Position numbers and translations under genes: made by a program. The notes under the pieces were generated by a model. That model ran no database searches. It was not told the origin of the DNA and saw nothing but the letters and a program-made list of their open reading frames with translations. Shown here one piece after another: positions 17,153 to 34,332 of a stretch of 64,000 nt of DNA. The stretch is taken from NCBI RefSeq assembly GCF_014873955.1, contig NZ_JADBED010000001.1, positions 2,480,001 to 2,544,000 of the forward strand. Reading direction: 5' to 3'. Source of the stretch: Nesterenkonia lutea. GTDB lineage: Bacteria; Actinomycetota; Actinomycetes; Actinomycetales; Micrococcaceae. How positions within the stretch are numbered: position 1 is the first letter of the stretch; each line of letters starts with the position of its first letter.

Positions 17153-17701
17153 ATGGAGCGTTTGGTTGTAAATCTGAGTCGCGTGATGGGGGTCATCGCC
17201 GCCCTGGCGATAGTCGTGCTCATGGCCGCGATCGTGACCGATGTGGTCACGCGATACCTGACCGGTTCGAGCATGCCGGCCATGGTGGAGCTCTCAGAAT
17301 CCGCGCTCGTGGTCTCCATCTTCTTCGGGCTGGCGTGGGCGGGCGCCTCCGGGGCGCATGTGTCAGTCACCCTGGTCACCGACCGCCTCTCGGCGCGGTT
17401 GAACCGGCTCCTGGCTGTCACGGTCTGGGTGCTCACCACCCTCTTCGTCAGCTGGTTGACCTTTGCGACCGCCGGCAGGGCGATGAACGCCACCGGCAGG
17501 GGTGAGACACGCATGGGCATCGTGGAATGGCCGACGTGGCCGCTTCGGTGGGTGATCGTGGCGGGCTTCCTGGCGCTGCTGCTCGTGTCCCTCGCCAATC
17601 TCGTGCGGGCCCTCCGTGGCCGTGACATCCTCCCGGCCCAGATCGACGAACTCCCCCGACGTGACACGGTCGCTGAGACCGGCGAGCACGCGAGCCTCTG
17701 A
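17153..17701 (+). CDS. dctQ: TRAP transporter small permease (DctQ type)
   Basis: A 182-residue integral membrane protein with four hydrophobic segments (near residues 12-32, 45-62, 80-105 and 125-150), the standard DctQ layout. It shows the conserved Arg-Tyr-x-x-G pattern in TDVVTRYLTGSSMPAMVELSE. It pairs with DctM to form the Na+ or H+-coupled membrane part of a TRAP transporter. The ATG at 17153 is preceded by GAGAGGAG with 6 bp spacing. Confidence 0.9.
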   Translation: MERLVVNLSRVMGVIAALAIVVLMAAIVTDVVTRYLTGSSMPAMVELSESALVVSIFFGLAWAGASGAHVSVTLVTDRLSARLNRLLAVTVWVLTTLFVSWLTFATAGRAMNATGRGETRMGIVEWPTWPLRWVIVAGFLALLLVSLANLVRALRGRDILPAQIDELPRRDTVAETGEHASL

Positions 17702-17720
17702 CCGGAAGAGAAACTGCCCA

Positions 17721-19118: not shown

Positions 19119-19231
19119 CCGGCCCCTCGGAAACGCTTCGTCGCTGGAGCACAGGTCATGCACCGCTGGACCACCAGTGACGCTCCCTACCGCGGACAGT
19201 GGTAGCAACGAACTACAAGGAAGGAACAACG

Positions 19232-20498: not shown

Positions 20499-21221
20499 AT
20501 GAGCGAGACTTTGCCGACCACGCCTGAACCCACCCACCTGGGCCATCTGCGCCGGGAGCGACTGCTATCCGCCAGGCTCTACGTCTGCACGGACCTGCAG
20601 CGGTTCATCACCCGCCCCGAGGCCGGACCCGTGGACGAGCTGGACTTCGATGCGCTGCGCGAGTTCTTCGTCGCGGCCTACACCGGGGGCGTGGACATCA
20701 TCCAGGTCCGGGACAAACAGGTCACGGTGCAGACCGAGATCGCCGCGCTGGTCCTGCTGCGCCAGGTCGCCAATGAATACGGCGGCCTCTCTGCGGCGAA
20801 TGACCGCGCCGATGTCGCAGCGATCGCGGGAGTCGATGTCTTCCACGTGGGCCAGGAGGATCTCTCCACGGAGGAGGCACGGCTGGTCCTGGGCGACGAC
20901 GTGGTCATCGGTCGCTCCTGTCACAGCATCGAGCAGGTGCGTGAAGCCGATTCAGACATCGGCCTGGACTACTTCTGCACCGGACCGATCTGGGAGACCC
21001 CCACGAAACCTGGCCGAGCCGCCGTCGGACTCGAGCTCCCCGCACAGGCAGCGGCGCTGGAGAGTTCCAAGGTCTTCTTCGCCATCGGCGGCATCGACGA
21101 GACCAACATCGCGCAGGTCACCGAGGCCGGCGCCGACCGCGTGGTGGTTGTCCGCGCCGTGACCCAGGCTTCGGACCCTGCCGCGAGCGCCCGGGCGCTT
21201 CGCGACCAGCTCCCGGCTTAG
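20499..21221 (+). CDS. thiE: Thiamine-phosphate synthase ThiE
   Basis: A 240-residue TIM-barrel enzyme joining hydroxymethylpyrimidine diphosphate and thiazole phosphate to give thiamine phosphate. Typical elements are VDIIQVRDK, LSAANDRADVAAIAGVDVFHVGQED, VIGRSCHS, and the C-terminal FFAIGGIDETNIAQV and ADRVVVVRAV phosphate-binding segments. The start is set at 20499 by the TACCCT-N6-ATG arrangement; an upstream GTG (20481) has no ribosome-binding site. It completes the thiazole branch encoded at 1182-4833. Its 3' end overlaps the convergent LysR-like gene by 104 bp. Confidence 0.93.
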   Translation: MSETLPTTPEPTHLGHLRRERLLSARLYVCTDLQRFITRPEAGPVDELDFDALREFFVAAYTGGVDIIQVRDKQVTVQTEIAALVLLRQVANEYGGLSAANDRADVAAIAGVDVFHVGQEDLSTEEARLVLGDDVVIGRSCHSIEQVREADSDIGLDYFCTGPIWETPTKPGRAAVGLELPAQAAALESSKVFFAIGGIDETNIAQVTEAGADRVVVVRAVTQASDPAASARALRDQLPA

Positions 21222-21945
21222 CGTTCGCTTTGGCGGGCTTGGTCTTCTCCGGCGCGGCCGTAGCGATCTCACTGCGGCCGCTGCCGGGCCTCCTGCCTCG
21301 GGCCACCCCGATGAACTCCTGGATCACCGGGCCGTCCGCCTCACGCAGCCAGGCCAGTCCGACGTCATAGCCCGGGGCGCCCTCGACCTGGCGGATCACC
21401 ACGTCGCGGCGCGAGAGCATCCGGGCCACCGAGTTCGGCAGGATCACCAGCCCTGCGCCCGAGGCGACGACCTCCAGGGCCAGGCGCTCCCCCGCCGCCA
21501 GTTCGGCACCGAGCTTCGGCGTGTGGACGTCACCGCTGGGATCTGTCTCCACCGGGTCTGGCCCGACCGGACCCGACCCCGCGGCATCCGCCACGCCCGC
21601 GGCACGCGCGGATTCTGCGAGCATCCTCGCCGGATCGAAGAAGGGCTCGGAGGCGATCTCCTCCCAGGTCACTGACTCCTCCGCCGCTGCGACCCAGTGA
21701 TCGCGGGCCGCGCAGACCACCGGGTGCTCGCGATAGAGCCAGACCCGGTGCAGATCGTCTCCAGTGCCGGTCTCCGCGTCCTCGGGGAAGCGGATATACC
21801 CCACGTCCACCGTCCCCGCGCGCAGACGCTCGAGCTGACCGGCCTCGTCGTAGTTCTCCACGCTCAGCGCGAAGTCCGGATAGCGCTGCCGCCAGCGGGT
21901 CACCCATTTGTCCGGTGTGGCACCCGGAACAGTCCCCAGCTTCAT
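21118..21945 (-). CDS. Orphan LysR-type substrate-binding domain protein lacking an HTH
   Basis: A 275-residue protein that aligns with the effector domain of LysR regulators (LGTVPGATPDKWVTRWRQRYP at the first strand, then GTVDVGYIRFPED) but has no DNA-binding helix. The last ~60 residues are a low-complexity Lys/Arg/Pro/Gly tail that could bind nucleic acid; this tail is encoded antisense to the end of thiE. The ATG at 21945 has TAGACT exactly 6 bp upstream, so the short form appears to be the real one, not a truncated pseudogene. Function unknown. Confidence 0.7.
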   Translation of the reverse strand: MKLGTVPGATPDKWVTRWRQRYPDFALSVENYDEAGQLERLRAGTVDVGYIRFPEDAETGTGDDLHRVWLYREHPVVCAARDHWVAAAEESVTWEEIASEPFFDPARMLAESARAAGVADAAGSGPVGPDPVETDPSGDVHTPKLGAELAAGERLALEVVASGAGLVILPNSVARMLSRRDVVIRQVEGAPGYDVGLAWLREADGPVIQEFIGVARGRRPGSGRSEIATAAPEKTKPAKANAKPGAGREAPGRSRQGPKPGSRRGQPPRGRRRPR

Positions 21946-21964: not shown

Positions 21965-23338
21965 CTAGGCCACCGGCACCTCCGCAGTGCTCAGGTAGGC
22001 GGCGGAGCTGTCATCCAGCGCTTCGATCCACGGGGTGTGGTGCGGCACCGCCTCGGTCTGGGTCATCACGGAGCGGTAGCAGCGGTCGCGGTAGGTCAGG
22101 ATGTCTGCCTGCTTGTCATGCTTCCACTCCAGGAAGATCTCGACCACTGCATCGAGATCGAACATCGGATAGTCCGTGAGCTCGATCAGGTCACGGATGT
22201 AATCCGCCTGGAACTCGACATCCTCACGGACCGTCTCGATCGCGTGCATCCGGTTCAGCCACCTCTGGATGTCCCTGCGCCGCACCTCGGCGGCGGGGAT
22301 CGCGAAGCGGTCCAGGATCATGTCGCGCACGAGCCATGCCTGGGCGTCGAACATGTTGAAGGTGAACCACTGGTCCTGCATGCCGAGGAAGTACAGATGA
22401 GGTGTCTCCTCGGCGGCCACACCCTTATAGAGCCTGTCGGGATAGAGCGTATTGGCTGTGCGCAGCCTGAGCTCCTGCGGCAGGAAGGGAAAGTGGTGCC
22501 GATACCCCGTGGCCAGGATGACCGCGTCGAATCCTCGGGTCCTCCCGTCACGGAAATACGCCGTGCGCCCCTGAAAACGCCGCACCAGCGGCCATTCCTC
22601 GAGAGAGGCTGGCCAGCCAAAACCCATCGGTTCGGTGCGATAGCTGAAGACCACGGAGGCCGCACCGAGCTTGTGCGCCTGGATGCCGATGTCTTCCGCA
22701 GAGTAGCTTGATCCGATCACCAGCACGTCCTTGTCGGCCAGCTCCTCCGCCCCACGAAAGTCGTGGGCGTGCATCACTGGGCCGGGGAAGCTCTCGATAC
22801 CCTCGAAAGCCGGCACATGGGGGAACGAAAAATGCCCGGTGGCCACCACGACGTCGTCGAAGTGCTCCGTGGACTCGGACTGACTCGGAAGATGTTCTGA
22901 GGTCACGAGGAACCCGCTGATCGGGTGCGGGGTCACGGTGCGTACAGCGGTGGAGAACCGCACCCAGTCTCGGAGCCCCGTTCCCTCCACCCGCCCATTG
23001 ATGTAGTCCCACAGCACAGCGCGCGGCGGGTAGGAGGAGATAGGACGGCCGAAGTGCTCGTCGAAGGAGTAGTCCGCGAACTCGAGGCACTCCTTGGGGC
23101 CATTGGACCACAGATGCCGGTACATGCTGCTGTGCACCGGTTCGCTGTGTTCATCCATTCCCGTGCGCCAGGTGAAGTTCCACTGACCACCCCATTGTGA
23201 CTGCTTCTCGAAGCAGACGACCTCTGGAATGTCGGCTCCCTGCGCGGCGGCAGAGGCGAAGCCGCGAAGCTGTGCCATGCCACTCGGACCTGTTCCGATC
23301 ACGGCAATGCGGGCAGTCATCTCTGGCTCGTTGGGCAT
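21965..23338 (-). CDS. tmm: Flavin-containing monooxygenase, trimethylamine monooxygenase-like
   Basis: A 457-residue class B flavoprotein. The FAD motif VIGTGPSGMAQL begins at about residue 13. MYRHLWSNGPKECLEFADYS, the FMO fingerprint ATGHFSFPHVPAFEG and the NADPH motif VIGSSYSAEDIG all resemble the bacterial Tmm that oxidises trimethylamine to TMAO. It sits in one leftward operon with a cupin and dimethylamine monooxygenase genes, which strongly favours a methylated-amine substrate. The ATG at 23338 lies 9 bp after the cupin stop; TAGGGT is exactly 6 bp upstream of it, so an internal leaderless transcript is possible. An alternative start is the Met at residue 7. Confidence 0.85.
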   Translation of the reverse strand: MPNEPEMTARIAVIGTGPSGMAQLRGFASAAAQGADIPEVVCFEKQSQWGGQWNFTWRTGMDEHSEPVHSSMYRHLWSNGPKECLEFADYSFDEHFGRPISSYPPRAVLWDYINGRVEGTGLRDWVRFSTAVRTVTPHPISGFLVTSEHLPSQSESTEHFDDVVVATGHFSFPHVPAFEGIESFPGPVMHAHDFRGAEELADKDVLVIGSSYSAEDIGIQAHKLGAASVVFSYRTEPMGFGWPASLEEWPLVRRFQGRTAYFRDGRTRGFDAVILATGYRHHFPFLPQELRLRTANTLYPDRLYKGVAAEETPHLYFLGMQDQWFTFNMFDAQAWLVRDMILDRFAIPAAEVRRRDIQRWLNRMHAIETVREDVEFQADYIRDLIELTDYPMFDLDAVVEIFLEWKHDKQADILTYRDRCYRSVMTQTEAVPHHTPWIEALDDSSAAYLSTAEVPVA

Positions 23339-23344
23339 CGGTTG

Positions 23345-23350
23345 ACCCTA
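23345..23350 (-). promoter_or_regulatory. Possible internal -10 (TAGGGT) for tmm
   Basis: TAGGGT overlaps the TAG stop of the upstream cupin gene and ends 6 bp before the tmm ATG. It fits the leaderless pattern of the window but could be chance, because the gene is also inside an operon. Confidence 0.35.
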
Positions 23351-23728
23351 CGCCACGAAGTCCCGGTCCCCGGTGAAGAATCCGAGGGCGTAGTCGTCGG
23401 TCTCGAACCGGACTGGCGTGCCCTTGGGGAAGAACAGGATCTCTCCCTCCTCGGCGAGGACCTGTTCCCCGGTCTTCATGTCTGTGAGTTTGAACTGTCC
23501 TTTGACGACGTACTTCATCTCGTCATAGGTGTACTCGTACTCCAGCGGTTCCCCGGCCTTCAGTTCGAAGAATCCACTGCACATGCGGGCGCCCTCGGGA
23601 TTCATCAGAGCATCACCGATGAACGCCTCGACTCCTGGCACGTTCATCGAGGGAATGTCCTTCTTGGCACCGGTCACCTTGTGGATCGATCCGGTCTTCG
23701 TCATCGTGCCGAGCAGCTGCTTTTCCAT
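23348..23728 (-). CDS. Cupin domain protein (EutQ-like) in the methylamine operon
   Basis: A 126-residue single-domain cupin. The barrel motifs are GEPLEYEYTYDEMKYVVKG (motif 1, with Glu/Tyr rather than the usual two His) and GEILFFPKGTPVRFE (motif 2), resembling EutQ-type cupins that may lack a classical metal triad. AGGAGG lies 4 bp before the ATG at 23728. Located between an unrecognised gene and tmm, it probably has an accessory or enzymatic role in amine oxidation. Possible roles include TMAO demethylation or aldehyde handling, but neither can be inferred from the fold alone. Confidence 0.75.
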   Translation of the reverse strand: MEKQLLGTMTKTGSIHKVTGAKKDIPSMNVPGVEAFIGDALMNPEGARMCSGFFELKAGEPLEYEYTYDEMKYVVKGQFKLTDMKTGEQVLAEEGEILFFPKGTPVRFETDDYALGFFTGDRDFVA

Positions 23729-23762
23729 GGTTCCTCCTGGGTGGGGTGGTTCTTCTCGGTTC

Positions 23763-24671
23763 TCAGAGGTTCTCCGCGGGATCCTTCCCGGTGGAGAACC
23801 TCGCAAGGGCTTCATCGGCGGAGAGTCGTCGATAGGTCTGTGCGGTGATGCCGGCTTCTCTGCAGGCTCGGCGGCAGGCGAGCATCTGGGCTCTCGTGGC
23901 GGGGTCCACCTCATCCAGACGCGTCCCGAAGATCTCGAGCCACTGCCGCAGATCGCTGACGGAGCTGGGGCCCGCCCCTATCTCCAGCAGCGCCGCGTCC
24001 TCGCGGCGGGCGAACTTCTGATGACAGCGATGGGGCTGAAGGACATCTTCGACCATGGCCTCACACTCCGGGTCAGAGCTGCTCAGGACGGTCTCACCCA
24101 CAGCGGTCCCACCCCGGGGCGCGTAGAGGTAGGCCGAGGCGAGCTGCTCACAGAAGCTGGAGCCGTCGGTCCATCCGCTCGGGGAGCGACAGATCCAGTC
24201 TCTGCCCCTCCATGGCGCCGGGGAGGCGGCCGGGCCCTCCGGAGCCTCTCCGACTCCCTGAAGCCCGGACTCAGGGAGCCCAGTGTCGGCCAGCCCAGTC
24301 TCGGGCAGCAGCAATCGTGTGATGCCCCGGTCGTTGAGCGCACCGAGCAGAACATAGGGATCTGCGGGAACGAAGACCTCTCGCCGCGGAGGCCAGACGT
24401 CCATGGGAGAGAAGTCCCCGAACCTGCCGCCGACATGGAAGAGGAACACCGGCGGATACTGGTCCTCGCGACGCCTAGGCTCCGCGTCATAGGAGAGCCC
24501 CATTGCCAGCTGAATCATCAGGCTGGCTCCCACCGCCCCCAGGGGTGAGCTCATCACCACCCCCAGCCGATCGTGCCGGTCCCAGTCGGGGAGGATCATC
24601 CGCGGGTCGCAGGGTCCGCCTCCGATCTGAGCCTTGAAGAGCTCGGAGCGGCAGAGCACGGAGACGTGCAT
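23763..24671 (-). CDS. Unrecognised protein in the methylamine operon
   Basis: A 302-residue protein that I cannot assign to a family. It starts MHVSVLCRSELFKAQIGGG, contains conserved-looking segments VVMSSPLGAVGASLMIQL, FLFHVGGRFGDFSPMDVW and PYVLLGALNDRGITRLLLPE, and ends with a predicted helical region rich in Arg and Glu. No signal peptide or clear membrane segment is present. The start at 24671 is 7 bp after the stop of the secondary-amine monooxygenase alpha subunit, and a cupin follows 34 bp later. The spacing indicates co-transcription with the demethylase genes. An acidic/Pro-rich linker near residues 140-160 may separate two domains. Confidence 0.65.
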   Translation of the reverse strand: MHVSVLCRSELFKAQIGGGPCDPRMILPDWDRHDRLGVVMSSPLGAVGASLMIQLAMGLSYDAEPRRREDQYPPVFLFHVGGRFGDFSPMDVWPPRREVFVPADPYVLLGALNDRGITRLLLPETGLADTGLPESGLQGVGEAPEGPAASPAPWRGRDWICRSPSGWTDGSSFCEQLASAYLYAPRGGTAVGETVLSSSDPECEAMVEDVLQPHRCHQKFARREDAALLEIGAGPSSVSDLRQWLEIFGTRLDEVDPATRAQMLACRRACREAGITAQTYRRLSADEALARFSTGKDPAENL

Positions 24672-24678
24672 CCGGGGC

Positions 24679-25704
24679 CTACCCTTCCTGCGGTGCACGG
24701 GCGGAGAGCCACTGCACGGCGCGGTCGCGGTAGGCGATGAACCCTTTGTAGTCCGCCATGTCCTCGGGGAGCTCCGCGAGGACCGCATGCAGCCGGGCCC
24801 GCCAGGGCTCGATGCCTGCGATGGCCTCCAGGGGCAGCAGATAGGTGCGGATCAGGAACATGACGCTGCCGGACTCGGGAAGGCGCACCAGGTGCTGGAC
24901 CTCCACACGAAGGTGGACTTCAGCCCCGAACGCGTCGTCGTCCACGGTGAGGATCCGGGTCCGATCCGGGCCCCATTCCGGGTAGGTCTCTGTGGAGACG
25001 TCCAGCCGGCGTCCGACGGTCAGCGACCAGTTGGTCCGGCGGTGGGGCGCATCGGCCTGCAGGCGCATCAGGAACTTCTGTGCGCGGGCGATCACTCCCG
25101 TCTGGTGCACACGGGGCACAGGGCCGTGGATCTCCAGGAAGCTCATCCCCACGTCGAACCCGAAAGACCAGTCGGCGGCGAAGGTGACCAGTCCCGCGTC
25201 CACGAAGAGCTGACCTTCACGCTGATCCAGCAGCGCGATGTCCTCCTGCACCTGGGCGCCGATGAATGTCAGCGGCTCATCCGGGAGGGTGTCCTCGTCG
25301 CCGTAGCTGAATCGCTGTTCGATGCCCAGCAGCCGGTTGGTCCAGAGGAAGGTCTCGCCCTCGCCCTCGCGCTCCAGCACCATCTGCTCGGGATGGGCGA
25401 GCGCGAGCGCCTGCATGATCGTGAGCATCGCGTCCCAGGCGGAGGCCCGCATATGCGGCAGCACCTGCATCCGGGAGGGATCCCTGCCGAGGATGGCCTG
25501 GCGCTCCCCGAGCTCGTGGGCGTACTCGCTGTCGATGTGCACGACGCTCTCGCCCCACTGGCCGGCAGGGGTCTCCACGGCAGCGCCGGCGCGCTCGACG
25601 TTGGTGGAGTATCGGTAGATGTCCTGGGGGAAGGGGAACGGAAAGGTCCTCACCAGGTCAGGTGCCAGATCAGACGCCAGGTCGGATGCCAGGTCGATGT
25701 TCAT
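24679..25704 (-). CDS. Heme-dependent oxidative N-demethylase, alpha subunit (DUF3445; secondary-amine monooxygenase)
   Basis: A 341-residue protein of the DUF3445/HDOD family, the heme-binding catalytic subunit of dimethylamine (secondary amine) monooxygenase, which converts dimethylamine to methylamine plus formaldehyde. Family features include PFPFPQDIYRYSTN near the N-terminus, MQVLPHMRASAWDA, the FVDAGLVTFAADWSFGFDVG stretch and VHQTGVIARAQKFLMRLQ. The N-terminus has a short acidic direct repeat (LASDLASDLAPDL). Its start overlaps the reductase stop by 4 bp. With the next two genes it matches the three-subunit composition described for the purified enzyme. Confidence 0.85.
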   Translation of the reverse strand: MNIDLASDLASDLAPDLVRTFPFPFPQDIYRYSTNVERAGAAVETPAGQWGESVVHIDSEYAHELGERQAILGRDPSRMQVLPHMRASAWDAMLTIMQALALAHPEQMVLEREGEGETFLWTNRLLGIEQRFSYGDEDTLPDEPLTFIGAQVQEDIALLDQREGQLFVDAGLVTFAADWSFGFDVGMSFLEIHGPVPRVHQTGVIARAQKFLMRLQADAPHRRTNWSLTVGRRLDVSTETYPEWGPDRTRILTVDDDAFGAEVHLRVEVQHLVRLPESGSVMFLIRTYLLPLEAIAGIEPWRARLHAVLAELPEDMADYKGFIAYRDRAVQWLSARAPQEG

Positions 25705-26636
25705 AGCGGAACCTCCAGAGAGTCGGTCTGCGCCCGGGAGACGCAGCACATCAGGGAATCGTCTGCCGCCTTCTCCTGGTCTTCCAGGTAGTGGTCTCGG
25801 TGCAGCGGCGTCCCGGCGGTGACCGGGATGCGGCACTCACCGCAGAAGCCCTGGCGGCACAGATTGGGGACGGAGATGCCGGTCTCTTCGAGCACCTCCA
25901 GCAGGCTGCGCCCCGGCTCCACGGTCACGGTGCGCTGGGAGTCGCGGAGGACCACTTCGAAGGGCGCTCCGGGATCGAGTGCATCCGCTCCGAAGCGCTC
26001 GGTGTGAATGCGACCCTCCGGCCACCCGAACTCCTCAGCGCTGCGACAGACTGTGTCCATGAAGGACTCCGGGCCGCAGCAGTAGAGATGGGTGCCGATC
26101 GGCTGACGGCCGAGGCTCTCCTGCAGCGCGGCGTGAAACTCGCTCCGTCGGGTGAAGCACCGCAGAGACTCGGGGGCGAGCTGGCGCAGCTCGTCGAGGT
26201 GGGTGCCGTGTCCGGGTCGATGCGAATAGAGGACCTCTGTCTGGTGTCCCCAGCGGGCCGCTGCGCGTAGGTGGGACAGGATCGGGGTCACTCCGATGCC
26301 GCCAGCGATGAGCAGGTGCTTGCGCGCCTTCTGCATGGGCGGAAACATCGAGCGAGGGGGTCGGACGGTGACCATGTCCCCCGGGCTGCGCTCGTGCAGC
26401 CAGCGCGAGCCGCCCCGACCGGCGCCGAGCTTGAGCACGGAGATCGTGTAGGCGCTCGGCATCCGTGAGTCCCCCAGCAACGAGTAGGCGTTGACACTGG
26501 GACCGCACTCCAGCACCAGGTGGCTGCCGGGGGTGAAGGACGGCAGCGAAGCTCGGTCCGGTCGCGCCAGGGTGAGTGTGCGCACTTGCGGGGAGGCCTC
26601 GGTGATCTCCGTGACTACGAGTTGCAGCATGGTCAT
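25701..26636 (-). CDS. Flavin/[2Fe-2S] oxidoreductase subunit of secondary-amine monooxygenase (PDR/VanB type)
   Basis: A 311-residue phthalate-dioxygenase-reductase-like protein. An N-terminal flavin domain (TPGSHLVLECG, NAYSLLGDSR) is followed by the NAD-binding domain (LIAGGIGVTPILSHL) and a C-terminal plant-type ferredoxin domain. Cluster ligands lie in CRQGFCGEC and LMCC. It should pass electrons from NAD(P)H to the heme subunit encoded by the overlapping downstream gene. The start at 26636 (MTMLQL) overlaps the upstream stop region by 4 bp; Met at 26630 is possible. Confidence 0.88.
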   Translation of the reverse strand: MTMLQLVVTEITEASPQVRTLTLARPDRASLPSFTPGSHLVLECGPSVNAYSLLGDSRMPSAYTISVLKLGAGRGGSRWLHERSPGDMVTVRPPRSMFPPMQKARKHLLIAGGIGVTPILSHLRAAARWGHQTEVLYSHRPGHGTHLDELRQLAPESLRCFTRRSEFHAALQESLGRQPIGTHLYCCGPESFMDTVCRSAEEFGWPEGRIHTERFGADALDPGAPFEVVLRDSQRTVTVEPGRSLLEVLEETGISVPNLCRQGFCGECRIPVTAGTPLHRDHYLEDQEKAADDSLMCCVSRAQTDSLEVPL

Positions 26637-27184
26637 TCGACTGCCTCCCCCTCTGGAGCCCATTCCTCGGCATCGTTCTTGAATCCCAGGAAGCTGCCAC
26701 GGCGTCGGGAGACGTGGTGGTGGACCAGCAGCTCCTCCTGACAGCCGCGACAGCTGATCACCTCCGCGATGGCTGCGGAGGTGATCATCGTGGTCTCGCA
26801 GTGCGCGCAGGTGACCGGGAGGGCCTCCACACTGGTGGTTCCTACGATGATCTCGGCATCAAGGAGGCCCGCCCCCAGGGCGAGTGACCGGGTGCCCAGC
26901 ACGTCGAGCAGCGCTCCGGCGATCAGCAGCCTCCATCCGACGACGGCGTCGCGAAGCTCGGCGTCCACCCTCCGACGCTCGTCCGGCGAGGCTTGTTCCC
27001 GGGGCGCAAGCTCGAGCGTTCGGTGGGGGATGGAGAGCTCATCAAGACCGTCGGTCCAGCGCGCGGCGACCGGGGCAGCGGCGTAGGAGAGGATCGTGCA
27101 GCGCGAGGCCCGGGGATCAAGCGGCTGCACCAGGGGCTCCAGCGCCCACTGGGGAACGCTGGTGTGTTCCATCACCGGTGACAT
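26633..27184 (-). CDS. Dimethylamine monooxygenase small subunit (DmmA-like)
   Basis: A 183-residue protein. The C-terminal part carries a zinc-ribbon-like CxxC-x15-CxxC (CAHC and CRGC, about residues 128-150), preceded by a region that resembles the small subunit annotated DmmA in other amine-oxidising bacteria. It is the first gene of the leftward operon, with GGAGG 4 bp before the ATG. It overlaps the reductase gene by 4 bp. The role of the small subunit in the monooxygenase (assembly or electron transfer) is not known from the sequence. Confidence 0.75.
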   Translation of the reverse strand: MSPVMEHTSVPQWALEPLVQPLDPRASRCTILSYAAAPVAARWTDGLDELSIPHRTLELAPREQASPDERRRVDAELRDAVVGWRLLIAGALLDVLGTRSLALGAGLLDAEIIVGTTSVEALPVTCAHCETTMITSAAIAEVISCRGCQEELLVHHHVSRRRGSFLGFKNDAEEWAPEGEAVE

Positions 27185-27206
27185 CTGTCCTCCAGGAGCG
27201 CCTCAA

Positions 27207-27229
27207 GAAACGATTCCCATGCGGAAACG
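27207..27229. promoter_or_regulatory. Direct repeat GAAACG, period 17, before the dmm operon
   Basis: GAAACG occurs at 27207-27212 and 27224-27229, 23-45 bp upstream of the first dmm gene. One further copy (37800-37805) lies just before the XRE-cupin regulator gene. This hints at shared control, but the hexamer is short. Confidence 0.3.
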
Positions 27230-27333
27230 TTGTCTTCCCATGGTGGACCCAGGCAGGTTTCAGGCGCGTGACGAATGCGCAATGATCGCGTAAAAGCCGA
27301 AATTTCTCCGTTTTACTCAAAGCTTTCTCGTCC

Positions 27334-27349
27334 GTCACGCGGACGAAAC
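27334..27349 (+). promoter_or_regulatory. GlnR-like box GTCAC-N6-GAAAC, amt/dmm divergent region
   Basis: A perfect match to the actinobacterial GlnR consensus gTnAC-n6-GaAAC, 95 bp before the amt start and 150 bp before the divergent dmm operon. GTTTAC follows 8 bp later, the same arrangement as at gmaS. It predicts nitrogen-limitation control. Confidence 0.6.
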
Positions 27350-27443
27350 ACCAGGCTGTTTACTGTCGTAATACGCTGTTTAATACGGCGATACTACCGA
27401 TTGCCCTGAATAATCACTCGCCCGTGAATGGAGATCTGCACTG

Positions 27444-28667
27444 ATGGCCGAAATGCAGGAATTGGCAGATGTAGCGTGGGTTCTGGCCGCTATGACAGTG
27501 GTCCTTCTGATGTTTCCCGGCCTGGCCCTCCTCTACGGAGGCATGGCTGGGACAAAGAACGTCCTCAATATGTTCGCGATGGTGATGACCACTCTGGGCA
27601 CCGTCACCATCATCTATGTGCTCTACGGCCATGGCATGGTCCTGGGTGAATCCCTGGGCGGCGTCATCGGCAATCCGCTGGACTACTTCGGCATGGTGGG
27701 CCACGACCAGGTCGGGGTCGACGGCGGCTTCGCCGAGACGCTGGACCTGGCGTTCTACACCTTGTTCGCCTGCATCACAGTCTCGATCATCGCCTCGGGC
27801 GCCCTCGGTCGGATGAAGTTCTCAGCCTGGATGGTCTTCTCGGTCGTCTGGGCCACGCTGGTGTACTTTCCCCTGGGACACTGGGTCTTCGGTGACGGGT
27901 GGCTCGGGGCCAACGTCAACTTCCACGACTACGCCGGCGGGACAGCGGTCCACATGGCGTCCGGCTTCGGCGCACTTGCACTCGCTGTAGCCCTGGGCCC
28001 GCGGCGGAACCTGTCGGCGCGTCCACACAGCCTGCCGCTGGTCCTTCTCGGCACCGGCATCCTCTGGATGGGGTGGCTGGGCTTCAACGGCGGCACCGCA
28101 GCAGGGGCGAACTACGTCGCGCAGTACACCACGATGACCACGCTGTTCGCCGGGGGCACAGGCATGCTGGGCTTCATGGCCTTCGAGAAGTTCCGCGATG
28201 GGAAGGCGACAGTCCTGGGCATGTGCTCAGGCATCATCGCCGGGCTGGTGGCTATCACCCCTGCAGCTGACGCGGTCGACCCCTTCGGTGCGCTGGCGCT
28301 GGGTTTCATCGCCGGAGCCTTTGTGGCCTGGGCCTGCACCTGGAAGACGAAGCTGGGCGTGGACGAGTCACTGGATGCCTTCGCCGTGCATGGCATGGGC
28401 GGTATCGTCGGCGCCATGTTCGTCGTGTTCTTCGGCTGGGCCACGTACACCAATGACGAGCCGATTCGCGGCATCTTCTTCGGCGGCGACATCTCTCTGC
28501 TCTGGGGCGAGCTGATCGCCATCGGCGTCACCTGCATCTACGCCTTCGGCGTCACCTGGATCATCGCCAAGGTCATGGACAAGACCATGAACATCCGGGT
28601 CAGCGAAGAGGACGAGGAAGACCTCGACTTCAAGCTCCACGGCCAGACCGCCTACGACTACAACTGA
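27444..28667 (+). CDS. amt: Ammonium transporter Amt
   Basis: A 407-residue membrane protein with eleven expected helices. Family motifs seen are MFPGLALLYGGM, DYAGGTAVHMASGFGALALA (containing the pore His) and FAVHGMGGIVGAMFV with the second pore His. It imports ammonium, here adjoining amine-degradation genes that yield or compete with ammonium. GGAGA lies 9 bp before the ATG. The PII gene follows 11 bp later. The upstream region holds a GlnR-like box. Confidence 0.95.
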   Translation: MAEMQELADVAWVLAAMTVVLLMFPGLALLYGGMAGTKNVLNMFAMVMTTLGTVTIIYVLYGHGMVLGESLGGVIGNPLDYFGMVGHDQVGVDGGFAETLDLAFYTLFACITVSIIASGALGRMKFSAWMVFSVVWATLVYFPLGHWVFGDGWLGANVNFHDYAGGTAVHMASGFGALALAVALGPRRNLSARPHSLPLVLLGTGILWMGWLGFNGGTAAGANYVAQYTTMTTLFAGGTGMLGFMAFEKFRDGKATVLGMCSGIIAGLVAITPAADAVDPFGALALGFIAGAFVAWACTWKTKLGVDESLDAFAVHGMGGIVGAMFVVFFGWATYTNDEPIRGIFFGGDISLLWGELIAIGVTCIYAFGVTWIIAKVMDKTMNIRVSEEDEEDLDFKLHGQTAYDYN

Positions 28668-28678
28668 GGAGCACCCCC

Positions 28679-29017
28679 ATGAAACTGATCACCGCGGTCA
28701 TTCAGCGGAACAAGCTCGATCCTGTCACCAAGGCTCTGGCCGAGCGGGGTGTCGGCGGGCTGACCGTGATGGATGTGATGGGCTACGGCACGCAGAAGGG
28801 GCGCAAGGAGGTCTTCCGCGGAAAGACCTACGAAGCCGGCTTCCTTCCCAAGACCAGAATCGATGTGATCGTCCCGGCCGCCGAGGCCGAGGGCGTCATC
28901 GACACCATCGTGGCGGCTGCCAAGACCGGCTCCATCGGTGACGGCAAGGTCTGGGCGACGCCCTTGTCCGGCATCGTGCGGGTCCGCACCGGAGAGCATG
29001 GCGAGGACGCAATCTAA
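28679..29017 (+). CDS. glnK: PII nitrogen regulatory protein (GlnK/GlnB)
   Basis: A 112-residue trimeric signal protein. The T-loop is seen at about residues 37-55 (GRKEVFRGKTYEAGFLPK) with a Tyr near position 51 for covalent modification, followed by the C-terminal GDGKVWATPLSGIVRVRTGE signature. It normally blocks Amt in response to ADP/ATP and 2-oxoglutarate. GAGGAG lies 7 bp before the ATG. It is followed by an intrinsic terminator. Confidence 0.95.
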   Translation: MKLITAVIQRNKLDPVTKALAERGVGGLTVMDVMGYGTQKGRKEVFRGKTYEAGFLPKTRIDVIVPAAEAEGVIDTIVAAAKTGSIGDGKVWATPLSGIVRVRTGEHGEDAI

Positions 29018-29073
29018 CCGGCAGCGCCAGAAGACCTCCCTTTCAGGACGATGTCCAGGGAGGGTCCCTCCAG

Positions 29074-29118
29074 GGTGGGGATGCATGCTCCGCGCATGCA
29101 TCCCCACCTTTTTCCTTT
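29074..29118 (+). terminator. Strong intrinsic terminator after amt-glnK
   Basis: A perfect 15-bp stem (29074-29088 with 29094-29108, GGTGGGGATGCATGC arm) with a TCCGC loop is followed by TTTTTCCTTT. It separates amt-glnK from the gmaS operon. Confidence 0.92.
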
Positions 29119-29131
29119 CCGAGACCGGGGG

Positions 29132-29147
29132 TTCACATCGCGGAAAC
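29132..29147 (+). promoter_or_regulatory. GlnR-like box TTCAC-N6-GAAAC upstream of gmaS
   Basis: It matches gTnAC-n6-GaAAC with one mismatch (T for G). Its placement before a GTTTAC and the gmaS -10 candidate (TACGCT, 29171-29176) parallels the amt promoter. Confidence 0.5.
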
Positions 29148-29202
29148 AGAAGCGGTGTTTACTACAGGTGTACGCTGATTCATGACAGTGAAAGGACTCT
29201 CG

Positions 29203-30531
29203 ATGGCCTCCCCGTCCTTGAAGGAACTCACCGAGCAGCACAAGACGAGATTCATCCTCGCGCTCTTCGTCGACCTCAACGGCAAGCCCTGCGCCAAGCT
29301 CGTGCCCGTGGAAGCCGTCGACCAGCTGATCGAAGAAGGGGTCGGCTTCGCCGGCTACGCGGCCGGAGCGATGGGCCAGGAGCCCAAGGACCCAGACATC
29401 ATGGCGATGCCCGATGCTTCTTCCTTCACCCCCGTCCCCTTCATCCGCGAGGGTCTGGCCATCGTGCATTGCGACCCCCACGTGGAAGGCCGGCCCTGGG
29501 GCTACGCCCCCCGTGTGATCCTCAAAGACATGATCGCCAAAGCCGCGGAAAAGGGCTACGAGCCCCAACTGGGAGCCGAGGTCGAGTACTTTCTGCTCAA
29601 GAAGGACGCCGAGGGCAGACTCGTCACCGCCGACGACGGCGACAACCACGCGCAGCCCTGCTACGACGCCCGCGGGGTGACCCGGATGTTCGGTCATCTC
29701 TCAGAGATCTCCGAGGCGATGAATGCGCTGGGCTGGGGGAACTACGCCAACGATCACGAGGACGGCAACGGACAGTTCGAGCAGAACTTCCACTATGACG
29801 AAGCTCTGATCACCGCTGACCGGGTCGTGACCCTGCGCTATCTGATCACCATGATCGCGGAGAAACGCGGGATGATCGCCACATTCATGCCCAAACCTTT
29901 CGCCGACCGGACCGGCACCGGGCTGCACTTCCACATTTCGCTGACCTCCCAGGGGAAGCCGATCTTCCCGGGGGGCAGCGCGCCGGAGGTCCCCGATGCC
30001 CACGGACTCGGTCTCTCTGAGGACGCCTACCACTTCGTCGGCGGCCTGCTCGAACACGCCAACGCGCTGCAGGCGCTGCTGGCCCCGACTGTGAACTCCT
30101 ATAAGCGCACCGGGGCGGTGGCCACCACCTCGGGGGCCTCCTGGGCGCCGCGGACGGCGACCTACGGCGGCAACGACCGCACCCACTACATCCGGGTCCC
30201 CGACGCCCACCGCGTCGAGCTGCGAGGCGGTGACGGAGCGGCGAATCCCTACCTCGCAGCCTCTGCGCTCATCGGCGCAGGCCTGGACGGGATCGAGAAG
30301 AAGAGGGACCCGGGCACGCCCGGTGATGGGCGGGAGCATGAGCCCTGTCTGCCGCTGACCCTCGTCGACGCCGTCGAAGCACTGGAGGCAGACCAGACCA
30401 TCCTGAACGTGCTCAACACCGTCGATCCCGGCGTGGGCAGGTATTACAACAACCTCAAGCGTGAAGAGTTCCACCAGTACCATGCGCAGGTCACCGAGTG
30501 GGAGATCCAGCGCTACCTCACCGCCGTCTGA
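29203..30531 (+). CDS. gmaS: Glutamine synthetase-family enzyme, probable gamma-glutamylmethylamide synthetase
   Basis: A 442-residue GS-like enzyme (ATP-dependent ligation of glutamate with an amine). Catalytic-domain signatures are GAEVEYFLLK, NGQFEQNFHY, TGLHFHISL, APTVNSYKR and RVELRGGDGAANPYLAASAL. Type (GSIII/GlnT-like) and direct linkage to three GlxBCD/MgsABC subunits match the N-methylglutamate pathway, in which GmaS ligates methylamine. Ordinary glutamine synthesis remains possible. The ATG at 29203 has AAAGGA 6 bp upstream; an in-frame ATG at 29182 lies 5 bp after TACGCT and may be a leaderless start, adding 7 residues. Confidence 0.8.
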   Translation: MASPSLKELTEQHKTRFILALFVDLNGKPCAKLVPVEAVDQLIEEGVGFAGYAAGAMGQEPKDPDIMAMPDASSFTPVPFIREGLAIVHCDPHVEGRPWGYAPRVILKDMIAKAAEKGYEPQLGAEVEYFLLKKDAEGRLVTADDGDNHAQPCYDARGVTRMFGHLSEISEAMNALGWGNYANDHEDGNGQFEQNFHYDEALITADRVVTLRYLITMIAEKRGMIATFMPKPFADRTGTGLHFHISLTSQGKPIFPGGSAPEVPDAHGLGLSEDAYHFVGGLLEHANALQALLAPTVNSYKRTGAVATTSGASWAPRTATYGGNDRTHYIRVPDAHRVELRGGDGAANPYLAASALIGAGLDGIEKKRDPGTPGDGREHEPCLPLTLVDAVEALEADQTILNVLNTVDPGVGRYYNNLKREEFHQYHAQVTEWEIQRYLTAV

Positions 30532-30604
30532 GCCTCACCGCCTTCTGGCACCTCACGGCCCTACAGCCAGCGCCTCACGGCCGAATAGAAGAAGGGAACC
30601 CGCC

Positions 30605-31519
30605 ATGTGTGGAATCGTCGGACTTCATCTGCGAAACCCAGACCTGTATCCGCGGCTCGGCGAGATGCTGAGCAGCATGCTCTGCGAGATGGAGGAGCGC
30701 GGAGCGGACTCTGCAGGGGTCGCCGTCTACGGGGACCCGCAATGGTGCCCTCCGGGCACGGTCACCGTCTCGGTGCTGGAGTCCCAGCAGAGCTCGCTGG
30801 AACTGAGCACTGCCGTCACTGCCCGCCTCGGAACCTCGGTGAGCATCGCCCAGGTCGGAGAGACCCAGCTCATCAGCGCTCCCGTCGACGTCGAGGAGCT
30901 CAAGCAAACCATCCGCGACGTTGCCCCTGGGTCTCTGGTCGCCGGGTTCGGCCAGGACCTCGCCGTGCTCAAGGGCGTGGGGCACCCTCGTGATCTCGCG
31001 GCGGAGTTCGGACTCGCCTCGGCGCAGGGCTGGCAGGGCGTGGGGCATACCCGAATGGCCACGGAGTCCGCGGTGACCCCTGGCGGCTGCCACCCCTATG
31101 CCGTGGGTGACGGCCAGTGCATGGTGCACAACGGCTCCTTCTCCAACCATGCGACCCTGCGTCGGGAGCTCATCCGCGACGGGGTCACGTTCGATTCGGA
31201 GAACGACACCGAGGTCGGCGCCCGCTACATCGCCGAGCAGATGCGCCGGGGAGCGACAGTGGAAGAAGCCGTGCACTCGCTCAGCGAGGAGTTCGACGGC
31301 TTCTACACCCTGCTGGTCTCCAACCGCGACTCCTTCGCCGTGGTCCGCGACGCCATCGCCTGCAAACCTGCGGTCATCGCCGAGACCGAGGACTGGGTGG
31401 CCATGGCCAGCGAGTACCGGGCGCTCACCGACCTGCCCGGCATCGAATCGGCCCGCCTCTATGAGCCCGAGCCCAACCGGATCTACGCCTGGTCCCGCAA
31501 GGAGGTCTCCGCGGCATGA
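30605..31519 (+). CDS. mgsA: Class II glutamine amidotransferase, N-methylglutamate synthase subunit A-like (GlxB)
   Basis: A 304-residue Ntn-hydrolase. The protein begins MCGIVGLHL, so Cys2 becomes the catalytic N-terminal nucleophile after Met removal; an upstream extension of the frame is rejected for this reason. Further GATase II motifs are GVGHTRMATES and VHNGSFSNHATLR. In the Mgs complex this subunit would hydrolyse the gamma-glutamylmethylamide or glutamine amide to release amine for transfer. It starts the mgsABC set 73 bp after gmaS. Confidence 0.85.
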   Translation: MCGIVGLHLRNPDLYPRLGEMLSSMLCEMEERGADSAGVAVYGDPQWCPPGTVTVSVLESQQSSLELSTAVTARLGTSVSIAQVGETQLISAPVDVEELKQTIRDVAPGSLVAGFGQDLAVLKGVGHPRDLAAEFGLASAQGWQGVGHTRMATESAVTPGGCHPYAVGDGQCMVHNGSFSNHATLRRELIRDGVTFDSENDTEVGARYIAEQMRRGATVEEAVHSLSEEFDGFYTLLVSNRDSFAVVRDAIACKPAVIAETEDWVAMASEYRALTDLPGIESARLYEPEPNRIYAWSRKEVSAA

Positions 31520-32211
31520 ACACACTGACTGACACCACCACCTTCGATCTCCAGAGCAGCACGCTGCGCGAGGTCAATCGGGCCCTGCATGTGCCAGGCG
31601 TCGCCGGGGCCTTCAGCATCCGCAATCCTCGGGGCGCCCACGCCCTGGCGGCGGGAGTCAATGCGGAGCTGGAGATCTCGATCGAGGGACATGTCGGTTA
31701 CTACGCCGCCGGCATGAACCAGCAGGCCGCCATCACCATCGCCGGCAATGCCGGCGTGGGCGTCGCCGAGAACATGATGAGCGGCTCCGTCCGTGTCACC
31801 GGAAACGCCTCCCAGTCTGCGGGCGCCACCGCCCACGGCGGCCTGCTGGTGGTCGAGGGAGACGCGGCGGCACGCTGCGGGATCTCGATGAAGGGCGTGG
31901 ACATCGTCGTCGGCGGCGACGTCGGTCATATGAGCGCCTTCATGGCTCAGGCCGGGCGGCTCGTGGTGCGCGGCGATGCCGGCGAGGCGCTCGGGGACTC
32001 GATCTATGAGACCCGCATCTACGTCCGGGGCTCGGTGGCCTCCCTCGGCGCCGACTGCACGGTCAAGGAGATGCGCCCGGAGCACCATGAGGAACTCGCC
32101 GCGCTGCTGGCGGCGGCCGGATACCTCGAGGACGACACCCATGCCTACACCCGCTATGGATCGGCCCGTCAGCTCTACCACTTCACCGTCGACAACGCGG
32201 ACAGCTACTGA
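31516..32211 (+). CDS. mgsB: GXGXG-motif protein, N-methylglutamate synthase subunit B-like (GlxC)
   Basis: A 231-residue protein corresponding to the C-terminal beta-helix domain of glutamate synthase. The repeating Gly pattern is visible from GNAGVGVAENMMSGSVRV onward (for example HGGLLVVEGDAAARCGISM). The ATG overlaps the mgsA stop (ATGA). Split glutamate-synthase-like proteins GlxB, GlxC and GlxD, next to a GS-family gene, are the diagnostic set for N-methylglutamate synthase. Confidence 0.85.
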   Translation: MNTLTDTTTFDLQSSTLREVNRALHVPGVAGAFSIRNPRGAHALAAGVNAELEISIEGHVGYYAAGMNQQAAITIAGNAGVGVAENMMSGSVRVTGNASQSAGATAHGGLLVVEGDAAARCGISMKGVDIVVGGDVGHMSAFMAQAGRLVVRGDAGEALGDSIYETRIYVRGSVASLGADCTVKEMRPEHHEELAALLAAAGYLEDDTHAYTRYGSARQLYHFTVDNADSY

Positions 32212-32248
32212 GCGTCCTGCAGTCCCTTCCGGAAGGAACACCACCGTC

Positions 32249-33589
32249 ATGACTGAACAGGCCACCGCCCATGGGCTCCGCGAATCGGCCACCTTCGACC
32301 AGAGCACCATGGCCGAGATCCGCCGCGCCGCCGCCACCGGCGTCTACGACATCCGCGGCGGGGGCTCCAAACGCCGACTCCCCCACTTCGATGATCTGCT
32401 CTTCCTGGGCGCCTCGATGTCCCGCTACCCGCTGGAGGGATACCGTGAGCGCTGCGGCACCGACGTCCTGCTGGGGACCCGCTTCGCAGAGCAGGGCGTG
32501 AAACCCATGCATCTCGACATTCCGGTGACCATCGCCGGAATGAGCTTCGGCGCGCTCTCCGGCCGCGCCAAAGATGCGCTGGGCCGCGGCGCCTCGGCAG
32601 TGGGCACCTCCACCACCACCGGCGACGGCGGGATGACCGATGAGGAGCGCGGCCAGTCCAAGCACCTGGTCTATCAGTACCTGCCCTCGCGCTACGGGAT
32701 GAACCCCGATCACCTGCGCATGGCCGACGCCATCGAAGTGGTGCTCGGCCAGGGCGCCAAGCCTGGCGGCGGCGGCATGCTGCTGGGTCAGAAGATCACC
32801 AGTCGGGTGGCGAAGATGCGCACCCTGCCCGAGGGGATCGATCAGCGCTCTGCCTCCCGCCATCCCGACTGGACCGGCCCGGACGACCTGACCATCAAGA
32901 TCCAGGAGCTGCGCGAGATCACCGACTGGCAGGTGCCCATCTACGTGAAGGTGGGAGCCTCCCGGACCTATTACGACACCAAGCTGGCCGTCCATGCCGG
33001 GGCCGACGTCATCGTCGTCGACGGCATGCAGGGCTCCACGGCCGCGACCCAGGAGGTGTTCATCGAGCATGTGGGCATCCCGACCCTGGCGGCGATCCCG
33101 CAGGCGGCACAGGCCCTGCGTGAGCTCGGGATGGAGCGCGAGGTGCAGCTGATCATCTCCGGAGGCATCCGTCACGGTGCGGATGTGGCCAAGGCCATGG
33201 CGCTCGGGGCAGACGCCGTCTCCATCGGCTCGGCGGCGCTGATCGCGCTGGGTGACAACGATCCGCGCTACGCGAAGGACTATGAGGCGCTGGGTTCGGC
33301 TGCCGGGTACTTCGACGACTATCAGGACGGCACCGATCCCTCCGGCGTCACCACACAGGATCCGGAGCTGCAGATGCGGCTGGACCCCGAGGCCGGCGGG
33401 CGCCGACTGGCGAACTTTCTGCGCGTGATGACCATGGAGGCCCAGACGATCGCCCGGGCCTGCGGCAAATCGCATATCCAGCACCTCGAGCCGGAGGACC
33501 TGGTGGCGCTGACCGTGGAGAGCTCGGCCATGGCACGGGTGCCGCTGGCCGGGACCAGCTGGATCCCTGGGTCCGCGACCGGTTACTGA
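32249..33589 (+). CDS. mgsC: FMN/Fe-S glutamate synthase-related protein, N-methylglutamate synthase subunit C-like (GlxD)
   Basis: A 446-residue protein equivalent to the FMN-binding synthase domain of glutamate synthase. Marker segments include ITIAGMSFGALSGRAKDALG-like text, GDGGMTDEERGQSK, GAKPGGGGMLLG and IISGGIRHGADVAKAMALGADAV, the FMN phosphate-binding part. With subunits A and B it should transfer the amine to 2-oxoglutarate. GGAAGGA lies 11 bp before the ATG, 38 bp after mgsB. Confidence 0.85.
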   Translation: MTEQATAHGLRESATFDQSTMAEIRRAAATGVYDIRGGGSKRRLPHFDDLLFLGASMSRYPLEGYRERCGTDVLLGTRFAEQGVKPMHLDIPVTIAGMSFGALSGRAKDALGRGASAVGTSTTTGDGGMTDEERGQSKHLVYQYLPSRYGMNPDHLRMADAIEVVLGQGAKPGGGGMLLGQKITSRVAKMRTLPEGIDQRSASRHPDWTGPDDLTIKIQELREITDWQVPIYVKVGASRTYYDTKLAVHAGADVIVVDGMQGSTAATQEVFIEHVGIPTLAAIPQAAQALRELGMEREVQLIISGGIRHGADVAKAMALGADAVSIGSAALIALGDNDPRYAKDYEALGSAAGYFDDYQDGTDPSGVTTQDPELQMRLDPEAGGRRLANFLRVMTMEAQTIARACGKSHIQHLEPEDLVALTVESSAMARVPLAGTSWIPGSATGY

Positions 33590-33639: not shown

Positions 33640-34332
33640 GTGAGCACAGACGCCTCCCGCGCCCCGCGCCCGACCCCGCGGGCTGAGGTCCGAGCGCTCT
33701 CCAGCCTGCCGGCGAGCCCCTGGCGCAACGGCGGCGGGACGACCCGGCAGCTCGCTGTGGCAGCTGCCGACGCCGGCCCGGGGTTCAGCTGGCGACTGAG
33801 CCAGGCAGAGCTGATCGGCGATGCAGAATTCTCGCCATTTCCAGGGGTGGGGCGGGTCTTCACGCTGCTCTCCGCGGGTCCCGTCCGGCTGGCGGTGGAT
33901 GGGGAGAGCCGGACGGTTCCCCGAGGTGAGCCGCAGAGGTTCTCCGGGGAGACCGAGGTCTCGGTCAGCCTCAGAGCAGGCACACCGGAGAAGGCGCTGA
34001 ACCTGATGCTCGCCCGCGGGCTTGCGCGGGGAGACGTGCAGGTCATTCGCGGCTCTGGCCGGCTCGTCCTGCCCGCTGATCACCTTGTGGCAGTGGTGGT
34101 CATCGACGGAGCGCTGGTGCTGCGCGACGGCAGGACAGTGAACGCGCTGGAGGCGATCCTGCCCTCCCCGCGGGCGCACTCCGGGACCCCGTCCCACGGC
34201 GGCCCGGCCCCCGGCGGCGGGCTCCACGACGGTCTGATCCAGGAGCTCGACTCCGCACGGGCGGGCGGCGCCGGGTCGGTCACCGTGGCAGCAGTCCAGG
34301 TGTTCCCCGGTGGCGCGGAGGCTATCGGCTGA
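33640..34332 (+). CDS. hutD: HutD-family protein
   Basis: A 230-residue bicupin of the HutD family. It shows the signature SPWRNGGGTTRQLAV and FSWRLSQAELIGDAEFSPFPGVGRVFTLL region (residues about 26-72). HutD is thought to moderate histidine degradation, and is also found beside other nitrogen-catabolism genes. No hut enzymes are present, so it may bind a different amide or carboxylate. The GTG start at 33640 lacks a strong ribosome-binding site; it is 50 bp after mgsC. It overlaps the convergent amidohydrolase by 11 bp. Confidence 0.8.
   Translation: MSTDASRAPRPTPRAEVRALSSLPASPWRNGGGTTRQLAVAAADAGPGFSWRLSQAELIGDAEFSPFPGVGRVFTLLSAGPVRLAVDGESRTVPRGEPQRFSGETEVSVSLRAGTPEKALNLMLARGLARGDVQVIRGSGRLVLPADHLVAVVVIDGALVLRDGRTVNALEAILPSPRAHSGTPSHGGPAPGGGLHDGLIQELDSARAGGAGSVTVAAVQVFPGGAEAIG

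Follow-up and report, generated by a model that had tools for sequence, protein, structure and literature searches.

The nearest known counterparts of the island described here are the methylated-amine clusters of Ruegeria pomeroyi and Methylocella silvestris, which, as outlined in PMC5520151 and PMC13390433, contain tmm, tdm, dmmDABC, gmaS, mgsABC and mgdABCD. In the Ruegeria scheme MgdABCD is the enzyme acting on N-methylglutamate, and dmmDABC includes a GcvT-type protein, DmmD, proposed to handle formaldehyde (PMC5520151). The demethylase for trimethylamine N-oxide (TMAO), Tdm, contains DUF1989 and GcvT domains, as described in the relevant part of PMC12560246. For actinobacteria, a 2015 account (PMC5023230) describes an EutQ-like cupin beside Tmo in methylotrophic Arthrobacter and Mycobacterium 141/155, and Gma with MgsABC in both Mycobacterium strains. 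A 64,000-nucleotide stretch of Nesterenkonia lutea (assembly GCF_014873955.1, contig NZ_JADBED010000001.1, positions 2,480,001 to 2,544,000; hereafter the window) shares both arrangements, and carries an island of methylated-amine genes in which the known steps but two are represented, with one candidate for each of those two.

The likeness to Ruegeria and Methylocella lies in the order of reactions, in the Tmm, DmmABC, GmaS and MgsABC families and in an ammonium transporter, amtB in the published scheme. Unlike those clusters, as the cited schemes set them out, the window locus lacks tdm, dmmD and mgdABCD; in their stead it has F0, a protein as yet without a name, together with a cupin and, close by, a monomeric oxidase. 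Two divergent operons make up the island: dmmA-dmmB-hodm-F0-cupin-tmm on the minus strand and amt-glnK-gmaS-mgsA-mgsB-mgsC on the plus strand. Both are mostly tightly packed, with spacings of -31 to +34 bases between minus-strand neighbours and a widest spacing across the two of 164 bases, glnK to gmaS. Protein identities put the locus nearest to Nesterenkonia. Its features are as follows (L numbers denote related loci, G numbers genomes).

21965-23338, minus strand: tmm, trimethylamine monooxygenase of the flavin-containing monooxygenase (FMO) type; NF058570, 723.2 bits against a cut-off of 675
23348-23728, minus strand: EutQ-like cupin, 126 amino acids; Pfam EutQ/Cupin_3, PDB 4axo at 1.3e-8
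23763-24671, minus strand: F0, unnamed protein of 302 amino acids, candidate protein for the TMAO step; no Pfam or NCBIfam match
24679-25704, minus strand: dmmC, HODM-alpha-like haem-dependent oxidative N-demethylase (HODM; DUF3445); PF11927, 212.5 bits
25701-26663, minus strand: dmmB-like FAD/2Fe-2S reductase; PF22290 DmmA-like_N, 91.4 bits, and Fer2, 52.6 bits
26633-27184, minus strand: dmmA-like subunit; NF041259, 100.5 bits against a cut-off of 60, and PF22289
27257-27272, minus strand: GlnR-box match toward dmmA; exact, the corresponding site of L036 having one mismatch
27334-27349, plus strand: GlnR-box match toward amt; exact, and exact in L036 also
27444-28667, plus strand: amt, ammonium transporter; TIGR00836, 399.9 bits against a cut-off of 343.3
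28679-29017, plus strand: glnK-like PII protein; PF00543, 89.6 bits
29182-30531, plus strand: gmaS, gamma-glutamylmethylamide synthetase; TIGR03105, 600.2 bits against a cut-off of 469.6
30605-31519, plus strand: mgsA-like class II amidotransferase; GATase_6, 62.8 bits, start placed by the N-terminus MCGI
31516-32211, plus strand: mgsB-like GXGXG protein; PF01493, 35.6 bits against a cut-off of 32.5
32249-33589, plus strand: mgsC-like glutamate-synthase-domain protein; PF01645, 296.9 bits
35527-36696, minus strand: monomeric DAO-family oxidase, candidate N-methylglutamate oxidase; PF01266, 159.2 bits

Every gene that a preliminary description of this DNA had named is found in place, on the minus strand at 21965-27184 and the plus strand at 27444-33589. 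Its assignments to the Tmm, DmmABC, GmaS and MgsABC families are supported by sequence scores, in the case of MgsABC by domains and adjacency to gmaS; a GcvT-type DmmD beside dmmABC is missing, none of the five GcvT matches of the genome lying inside the window. Tmm, DmmA, Amt and GmaS exceed curated NCBIfam cut-offs. Among solved structures Tmm matches 6hns, 8b2d, 2xve and 6kbw, the last entitled 'Trimethylamine monooxygenase' (5e-179), and the window HODM matches the haem-dependent N-demethylase 5lte at 1.8e-94; HODM-alpha-like, DmmB-like and DmmA-like subunits stand in one operon, as expected of DmmABC. MgsABC comprises three separate subunits: a class II amidotransferase, expected to begin with an N-terminal Cys as in the MCGI found here, a GXGXG protein and an FMN glutamate-synthase domain. 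Domains and position next to gmaS agree with this description.

The case that the preliminary description would have taken as fatal, a GmaS-like protein in an unrelated glutamine synthetase clade, did not occur. Besides exceeding the GmaS cut-off, the protein scores 261.8 bits on the GlnA type I model, below its cut-off of 429.15, and its nearest solved relatives are 7cql (373.8 bits) and the glutamate-methylamine ligase 9qur (354.6), followed by glutamine synthetases at no more than 193. In the 7cql alignment (numbering offset 20) the equivalents of RhGmaS Asp177, Glu186, Arg312, Trp300 and Ala48 are all retained, and the glutamine synthetase residues Asp50 and Glu304 are replaced, which places the protein within GmaS; the Trp300 and Ala48 positions are among those where PMC7948447, in the part relevant here, has GmaS depart from glutamine synthetase.

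Similar islands occur in other Nesterenkonia and in Arthrobacter. That of N. aurantiaca DSM 27373 (L036) is collinear with the window, with 81-96% protein identity from amt to mgsC, and differs in that tmm and F0 are broken in the record. N. muleiensis (L027) and Arthrobacter efr-133-R2A-120 (L029) share with the window F0, the oxidase, tmm, the cupin, gmaS and mgsABC, in gene orders unlike that of the window; the L029 stretch has no amt or PII match, and the L027 stretch includes only the edge of hodm. In Arthrobacter M4 the genes stand in two places: F0 with tmm and a cupin in L028 and, on a different contig, dmmABC with a second cupin in L122.

The sequence shows the gene families, the layout of the operons, the GlnR-box matches, the want of a recognisable Tdm and the presence of a formaldehyde dehydrogenase; the reactions are inferred, and would run as follows. 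Tmm would oxidise trimethylamine to TMAO, which would be converted to dimethylamine by a step without a known enzyme, F0, with or without the cupin, being the best candidate in the operon. DmmABC would demethylate dimethylamine to methylamine, GmaS and MgsABC would pass this onto glutamate to give N-methylglutamate, and the monomeric DAO-family oxidase would regenerate glutamate with release of formaldehyde. A mycothiol-dependent dehydrogenase would then oxidise the formaldehyde, so that nitrogen is kept and carbon lost. The preliminary description called the island complete-looking, which goes too far: neither locus nor genome holds a canonical Tdm, the span it covered has no Mgd, and a possible oxidase member lies outside that span.

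The 259-base intergenic region between the operons points to their regulation. The pattern gTnAc-n6-GaAAc is tabulated as the Streptomyces coelicolor GlnR box in PMC10704036. Exact matches number four in the window, where shuffles that keep the composition of the window as a whole would give 0.09, the intergenic region being by eye richer in A and T; two of the four lie in this region, one per strand, each directed into one operon. Allowing one mismatch gives ten matches in the window, three of them in the intergenic region. Such one-mismatch sites also lie ahead of related operons (two each in L027, L029 and L122, one in L119; raw counts with no chance level), and none is present in L027 20600-20795 or L028 9790-10000. 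A promoter and terminator scan of 27100-27520 found none. The other two exact matches are at 42520-42535, one base before an open reading frame starting at 42536, and at 48164-48179. The matches on both strands suggest that the island is under nitrogen control of the GlnR type, in line with the coordination with ammonium sensing supposed earlier, where Ruegeria, as described, has TmaR and TmoR; the whole pathway would then be under nitrogen control in an actinobacterium. As a whole, the island is probably a nitrogen-scavenging set with such control.

The first of the two missing steps leads from TMAO to dimethylamine. A search for DUF1989 and GcvT, which in Tdm share a single chain some 760 amino acids long, finds no canonical Tdm in the locus or the genome (2.96 Mb, two contigs): the sole DUF1989 match is a 292-amino-acid frame far from all five GcvT matches. 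No frame of Tdm length occurs among ten Tmm-bearing genomes checked either. Gram-positive bacteria with Tmm have, in the account of PMC5023230, no aminomethyltransferase-type TMAO demethylase near Tmm, and its strains, like the window, show no Tdm near Tmo. The sections of that account relevant here report methylamine oxidase genes (partial in Mycobacterium) and name no separate dimethylamine monooxygenase candidate, whereas the window has dmmABC in one operon with F0. For the route from TMAO to dimethylamine in Gram-positive Tmm bacteria the island supplies F0 as a testable candidate. The neighbouring cupin was rejected as a classical Fe(II) cupin that would do the demethylation. Classical metal cupins carry His ligands in two cupin motifs, and these are absent, an alignment of 42 neighbouring cupins showing YxYTYDExK in place of HxH..E; other metal sites are possible. 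A search of one open-licence paper collection gave nothing that pairs 'TMAO demethylase' with 'cupin'.

F0 is the novel part of the island; the rest is a variant of a known island type. It matches nothing in Pfam or NCBIfam, and neither a single-sequence nor a profile search of PDB gives a credible match. A spurious reading frame can be rejected on the strength of 76 homologous proteins at E <= 0.001, F0 itself counted, with conserved columns. Two predicted models (pLDDT 85.9 and 91.8), compared with VIA-align, place F0 in the LmbE/PIG-L-like fold superfamily; Foldseek alone gave no E under 0.001. LmbE/PIG-L zinc hydrolases carry an HPDD-type motif after the first strand. F0 differs from the LmbE/PIG-L deacetylases, BshB and GalB in lacking both this motif and any sequence match to them: among 37 and 34 rows respectively, His at column 42 counts 0 and 1, and Asp at columns 44-45 likewise 0 and 1, with column equivalence taken from secondary structure and a His one column earlier in 3 of the 37 rows. 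His2 is invariant in the 34 rows of one F0 alignment. The family turns up in 48 loci, all in named records and spread over several phyla, and often adjoins amine-demethylation genes in Actinomycetota and Bacilli (in a neighbour listing that passed over L052, L054, L057, L058, L066, L067 and L069 as redundant or unusable, and a Pfam scan of 30 chosen neighbouring proteins). Its tree, used for grouping only because of one very long branch (L062) and nine open forks, has a Nesterenkonia-Arthrobacter grouping. In several Bacilli loci (L056, L057, L058, L067 and L074) cupins and F0 stand in a row with genes for an acyl-CoA-dehydrogenase-type flavoprotein, an FMN reductase, an EamA transporter and a FAD synthetase-like protein, possibly an alternative amine oxygenase system.

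Could F0 be the replacement for Tdm? Two comparisons favour a role in the trimethylamine or TMAO step, if tentatively. First, tmm and F0 of the N. aurantiaca record are each scattered across several frames, and all three frames contain stops, whereas a single open frame covers each of cupin, dmmA, dmmB, hodm, amt, glnK, mgsA, mgsB and mgsC. Second, F0 of Arthrobacter M4 accompanies tmm and lies apart from dmmABC. As a candidate TMAO demethylase, with evidence on both sides, F0 is nevertheless doubtful. It is likewise a speculative reading that F0 is the first of a second, non-homologous family of TMAO demethylases (or of enzymes elsewhere in the trimethylamine branch), LmbE-like in fold, and no firmer that Actinomycetota would use this family with Tmm, and Bacilli with the acyl-CoA-dehydrogenase-type flavoprotein in its place; if true, F0 would do what Tdm does elsewhere, in Gram-positive users of methylated amines that lack it. 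Several points weigh against a TMAO role. No chemistry is evident for F0, since the LmbE zinc motif is absent. Among 39 F0-bearing genomes HODM occurs in 25 and Tmm in 5 (counts that took 37 of the 48 loci, with L060, L061, L066, L067, L069 and L074 sharing strain names with included loci and L033, L040, L042, L055 and L071 omitted), and 17 of the 48 loci have no marker gene in the available stretch. Some F0 loci also have, close by, oxidases that could work without TMAO: those of L047 and L112 are DAO oxidases, those of L034 and L050 Oxidored_FMN/Pyr_redox proteins, which we take to be of the trimethylamine-dehydrogenase type. G125 is a counter-example, with tmm, dmmABC and cupins present, no F0 and no DUF1989 match; a position of F0 past its contig end was rejected because another frame begins after its HODM gene (L118, last 120 bases), one that resembles a copper amine oxidase. 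The gmaS of N. aurantiaca also shows a single frame change, so that errors in the sequence may be at work there. Nor does divergence alone prove anything: DNA identity to the window is 66% for F0, 74-76% for tmm, 72% for dmmA and 82-89% for the remaining genes compared from both operons, and dmmA diverges fast yet is open. Among ten Tmm-bearing genomes (G363 under the Tmm cut-off) F0 is present in five of six with HODM and none of four without, a sample biased by the fact that four of the five carriers were found through F0; in the order sample alone (396 genomes) it is present in one of six Tmm-like genomes. These absences rest on the best six first-look candidates scored in the genomes listed, so distant copies may escape. 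Of 44 genomes 16 have DUF1989; the frames run from 111 to 589 amino acids, with one of 1159 amino acids in G403 whose GcvT content is unchecked; on this distribution Tdm does not split F0-bearing from F0-lacking Tmm genomes, which weakens the simple argument that F0 replaces it. A ferredoxin/flavodoxin protein has also been proposed as the Gram-positive TMAO demethylase, in the passage of PMC5023230 on that step. On another reading, about as doubtful as the TMAO role, F0 is a general accessory of N-demethylation in place of the GcvT-type DmmD, TMAO being excreted or demethylated by an unrecognised enzyme. The excess of HODM over Tmm in F0-bearing genomes agrees with this, as do its DAO and Oxidored_FMN oxidase neighbours, the ribulose monophosphate genes near it (hps within 10 kb in 10 of the 48 loci) and the want of a GcvT gene in the window where dmmDABC, as PMC5520151 outlines it, has dmmD. 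The N. aurantiaca record and Arthrobacter M4 speak the other way, F0 being broken along with tmm in the one while dmmABC is open, and standing with tmm in the other; so do a Yaniella metagenome-assembled genome with a GcvT gene beside HODM plus F0 on another contig, and the 10 of 11 HODM genomes of the order sample that have no F0 match.

The second missing step is the oxidation of N-methylglutamate. No enzyme for it lies between 21965 and 33589, and the locus has no four-subunit, sox-like MgdABCD set. The DAO-family oxidase stands on the opposite strand about 1.9 kb from mgsC; a HutD-family gene (33640-34332, plus strand) follows mgsC on the same strand, and a hydantoinase/allantoate amidohydrolase-like gene (34322-35563, minus strand) overlaps the oxidase gene. 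The oxidase falls below the cut-offs of both N-methyltryptophan oxidase (NF008425, 245.3 against 257) and monomeric sarcosine oxidase (TIGR01377, 185.8 against 479.65), and the open-licence collection searched has no paper on 'N-methylglutamate oxidase'. Gene order points to a link with the mgs genes: relatives overlap mgsC by 14 bases in N. muleiensis and 4 bases in Arthrobacter efr-133, and are encoded downstream from mgs genes in L063 and L072 (Halalkalibacter and Alteribacillus) and in L119 (G101, about 0.9 kb); the N. aurantiaca stretch stops inside the amidohydrolase-like gene, before the expected oxidase position. Action of the window oxidase on N-methylglutamate is only somewhat favoured, and it would make a possible one-protein replacement for the four-subunit dehydrogenase. 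A mycothiol-dependent formaldehyde dehydrogenase is present in the genome (619.8 bits, cut-off 512.9), and the best hexulose-6-phosphate synthase match reaches 26.8 bits against a cut-off of 200, other C1 routes not having been searched; the two together fit use of the amines for nitrogen, with formaldehyde oxidised.

A competing account gives this step to a heterotetrameric complex of the sarcosine oxidase or Mgd type encoded about 0.24 Mb away, the monomeric oxidase having another substrate; it is the less probable of the two. The genome's soxB (629 bits, cut-off 529.45), soxA (1236.5, cut-off 1164) and SoxG domain, at 2265-2271 kb of contig 1, could oxidise N-methylglutamate, which tells against the monomeric enzyme, as does the position of the latter on the opposite strand, beyond the HutD and hydrolase genes; the Ruegeria enzyme is, moreover, MgdABCD in the scheme of PMC5520151. 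Set against this, the sox genes are far from gmaS-mgsABC, and relatives of the monomeric oxidase overlap or follow mgs genes in five other loci, three of them at only 27-38% identity to it (55.6% in L029, 55% in L119, 38% in L027, 27% in L063 and L072). Broader still is the idea that the enzymes mainly act on other N-methylated or small amines, with the resemblance to the trimethylamine pathway at family level only. Tmm-like FMOs and HODM may each have more than one amine as substrate, and of the six Tmm-like genomes in the order sample four have neither HODM nor GmaS; with Tmm, HODM, GmaS and MgsABC in one locus and both Tmm and GmaS above equivalog cut-offs, this is rather improbable.

How rare is such a set? 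In the order sample Tmm exceeds its cut-off in five genomes, with a sixth at 562 bits and 282 loose FMO-like matches; HODM is found in 11 (six of them partial matches from one genus), GmaS in 18 at E <= 1e-120 and F0 in two. Tmm, HODM and GmaS occur together in one of the 396, the window's own, and G071, the sole other genome of the genus there, has no Tmm over cut-off and no HODM, GmaS or F0 match. The earlier view that the full set is uncommon holds in that sample and gives way outside it, where N. aurantiaca, N. muleiensis and Arthrobacter efr-133-R2A-120 have similar sets, as does Arthrobacter M4 across two loci; the combination is uncommon, not unique, and the kind of island is a known one. 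Parts of it were on record as well, EutQ beside Tmo and Gma with MgsABC in actinobacteria since 2015, as noted above, and dmmABC in Nesterenkonia since 2022 (in the relevant part of PMC8875376).

Elsewhere, on several Rhizobium plasmids, the gene of an NAD(P)/FAD-dependent oxidoreductase that matches tmm and a DUF3445 gene are no more than about 2 kb apart. The Yaniella genome (L120) has HODM and dmmB beside its GcvT gene, and a second GcvT protein that scores best on dimethylsulfoniopropionate demethylase, below cut-off. Next to the window island, 19 bases after tmm, a minus-strand frame at 21118-21945 codes for a basic-tailed protein with a LysR effector-binding domain and no matched helix-turn-helix domain, and TRAP transporter genes (DctM, DctP) lie ahead of the island at 17616-20374 on the plus strand.

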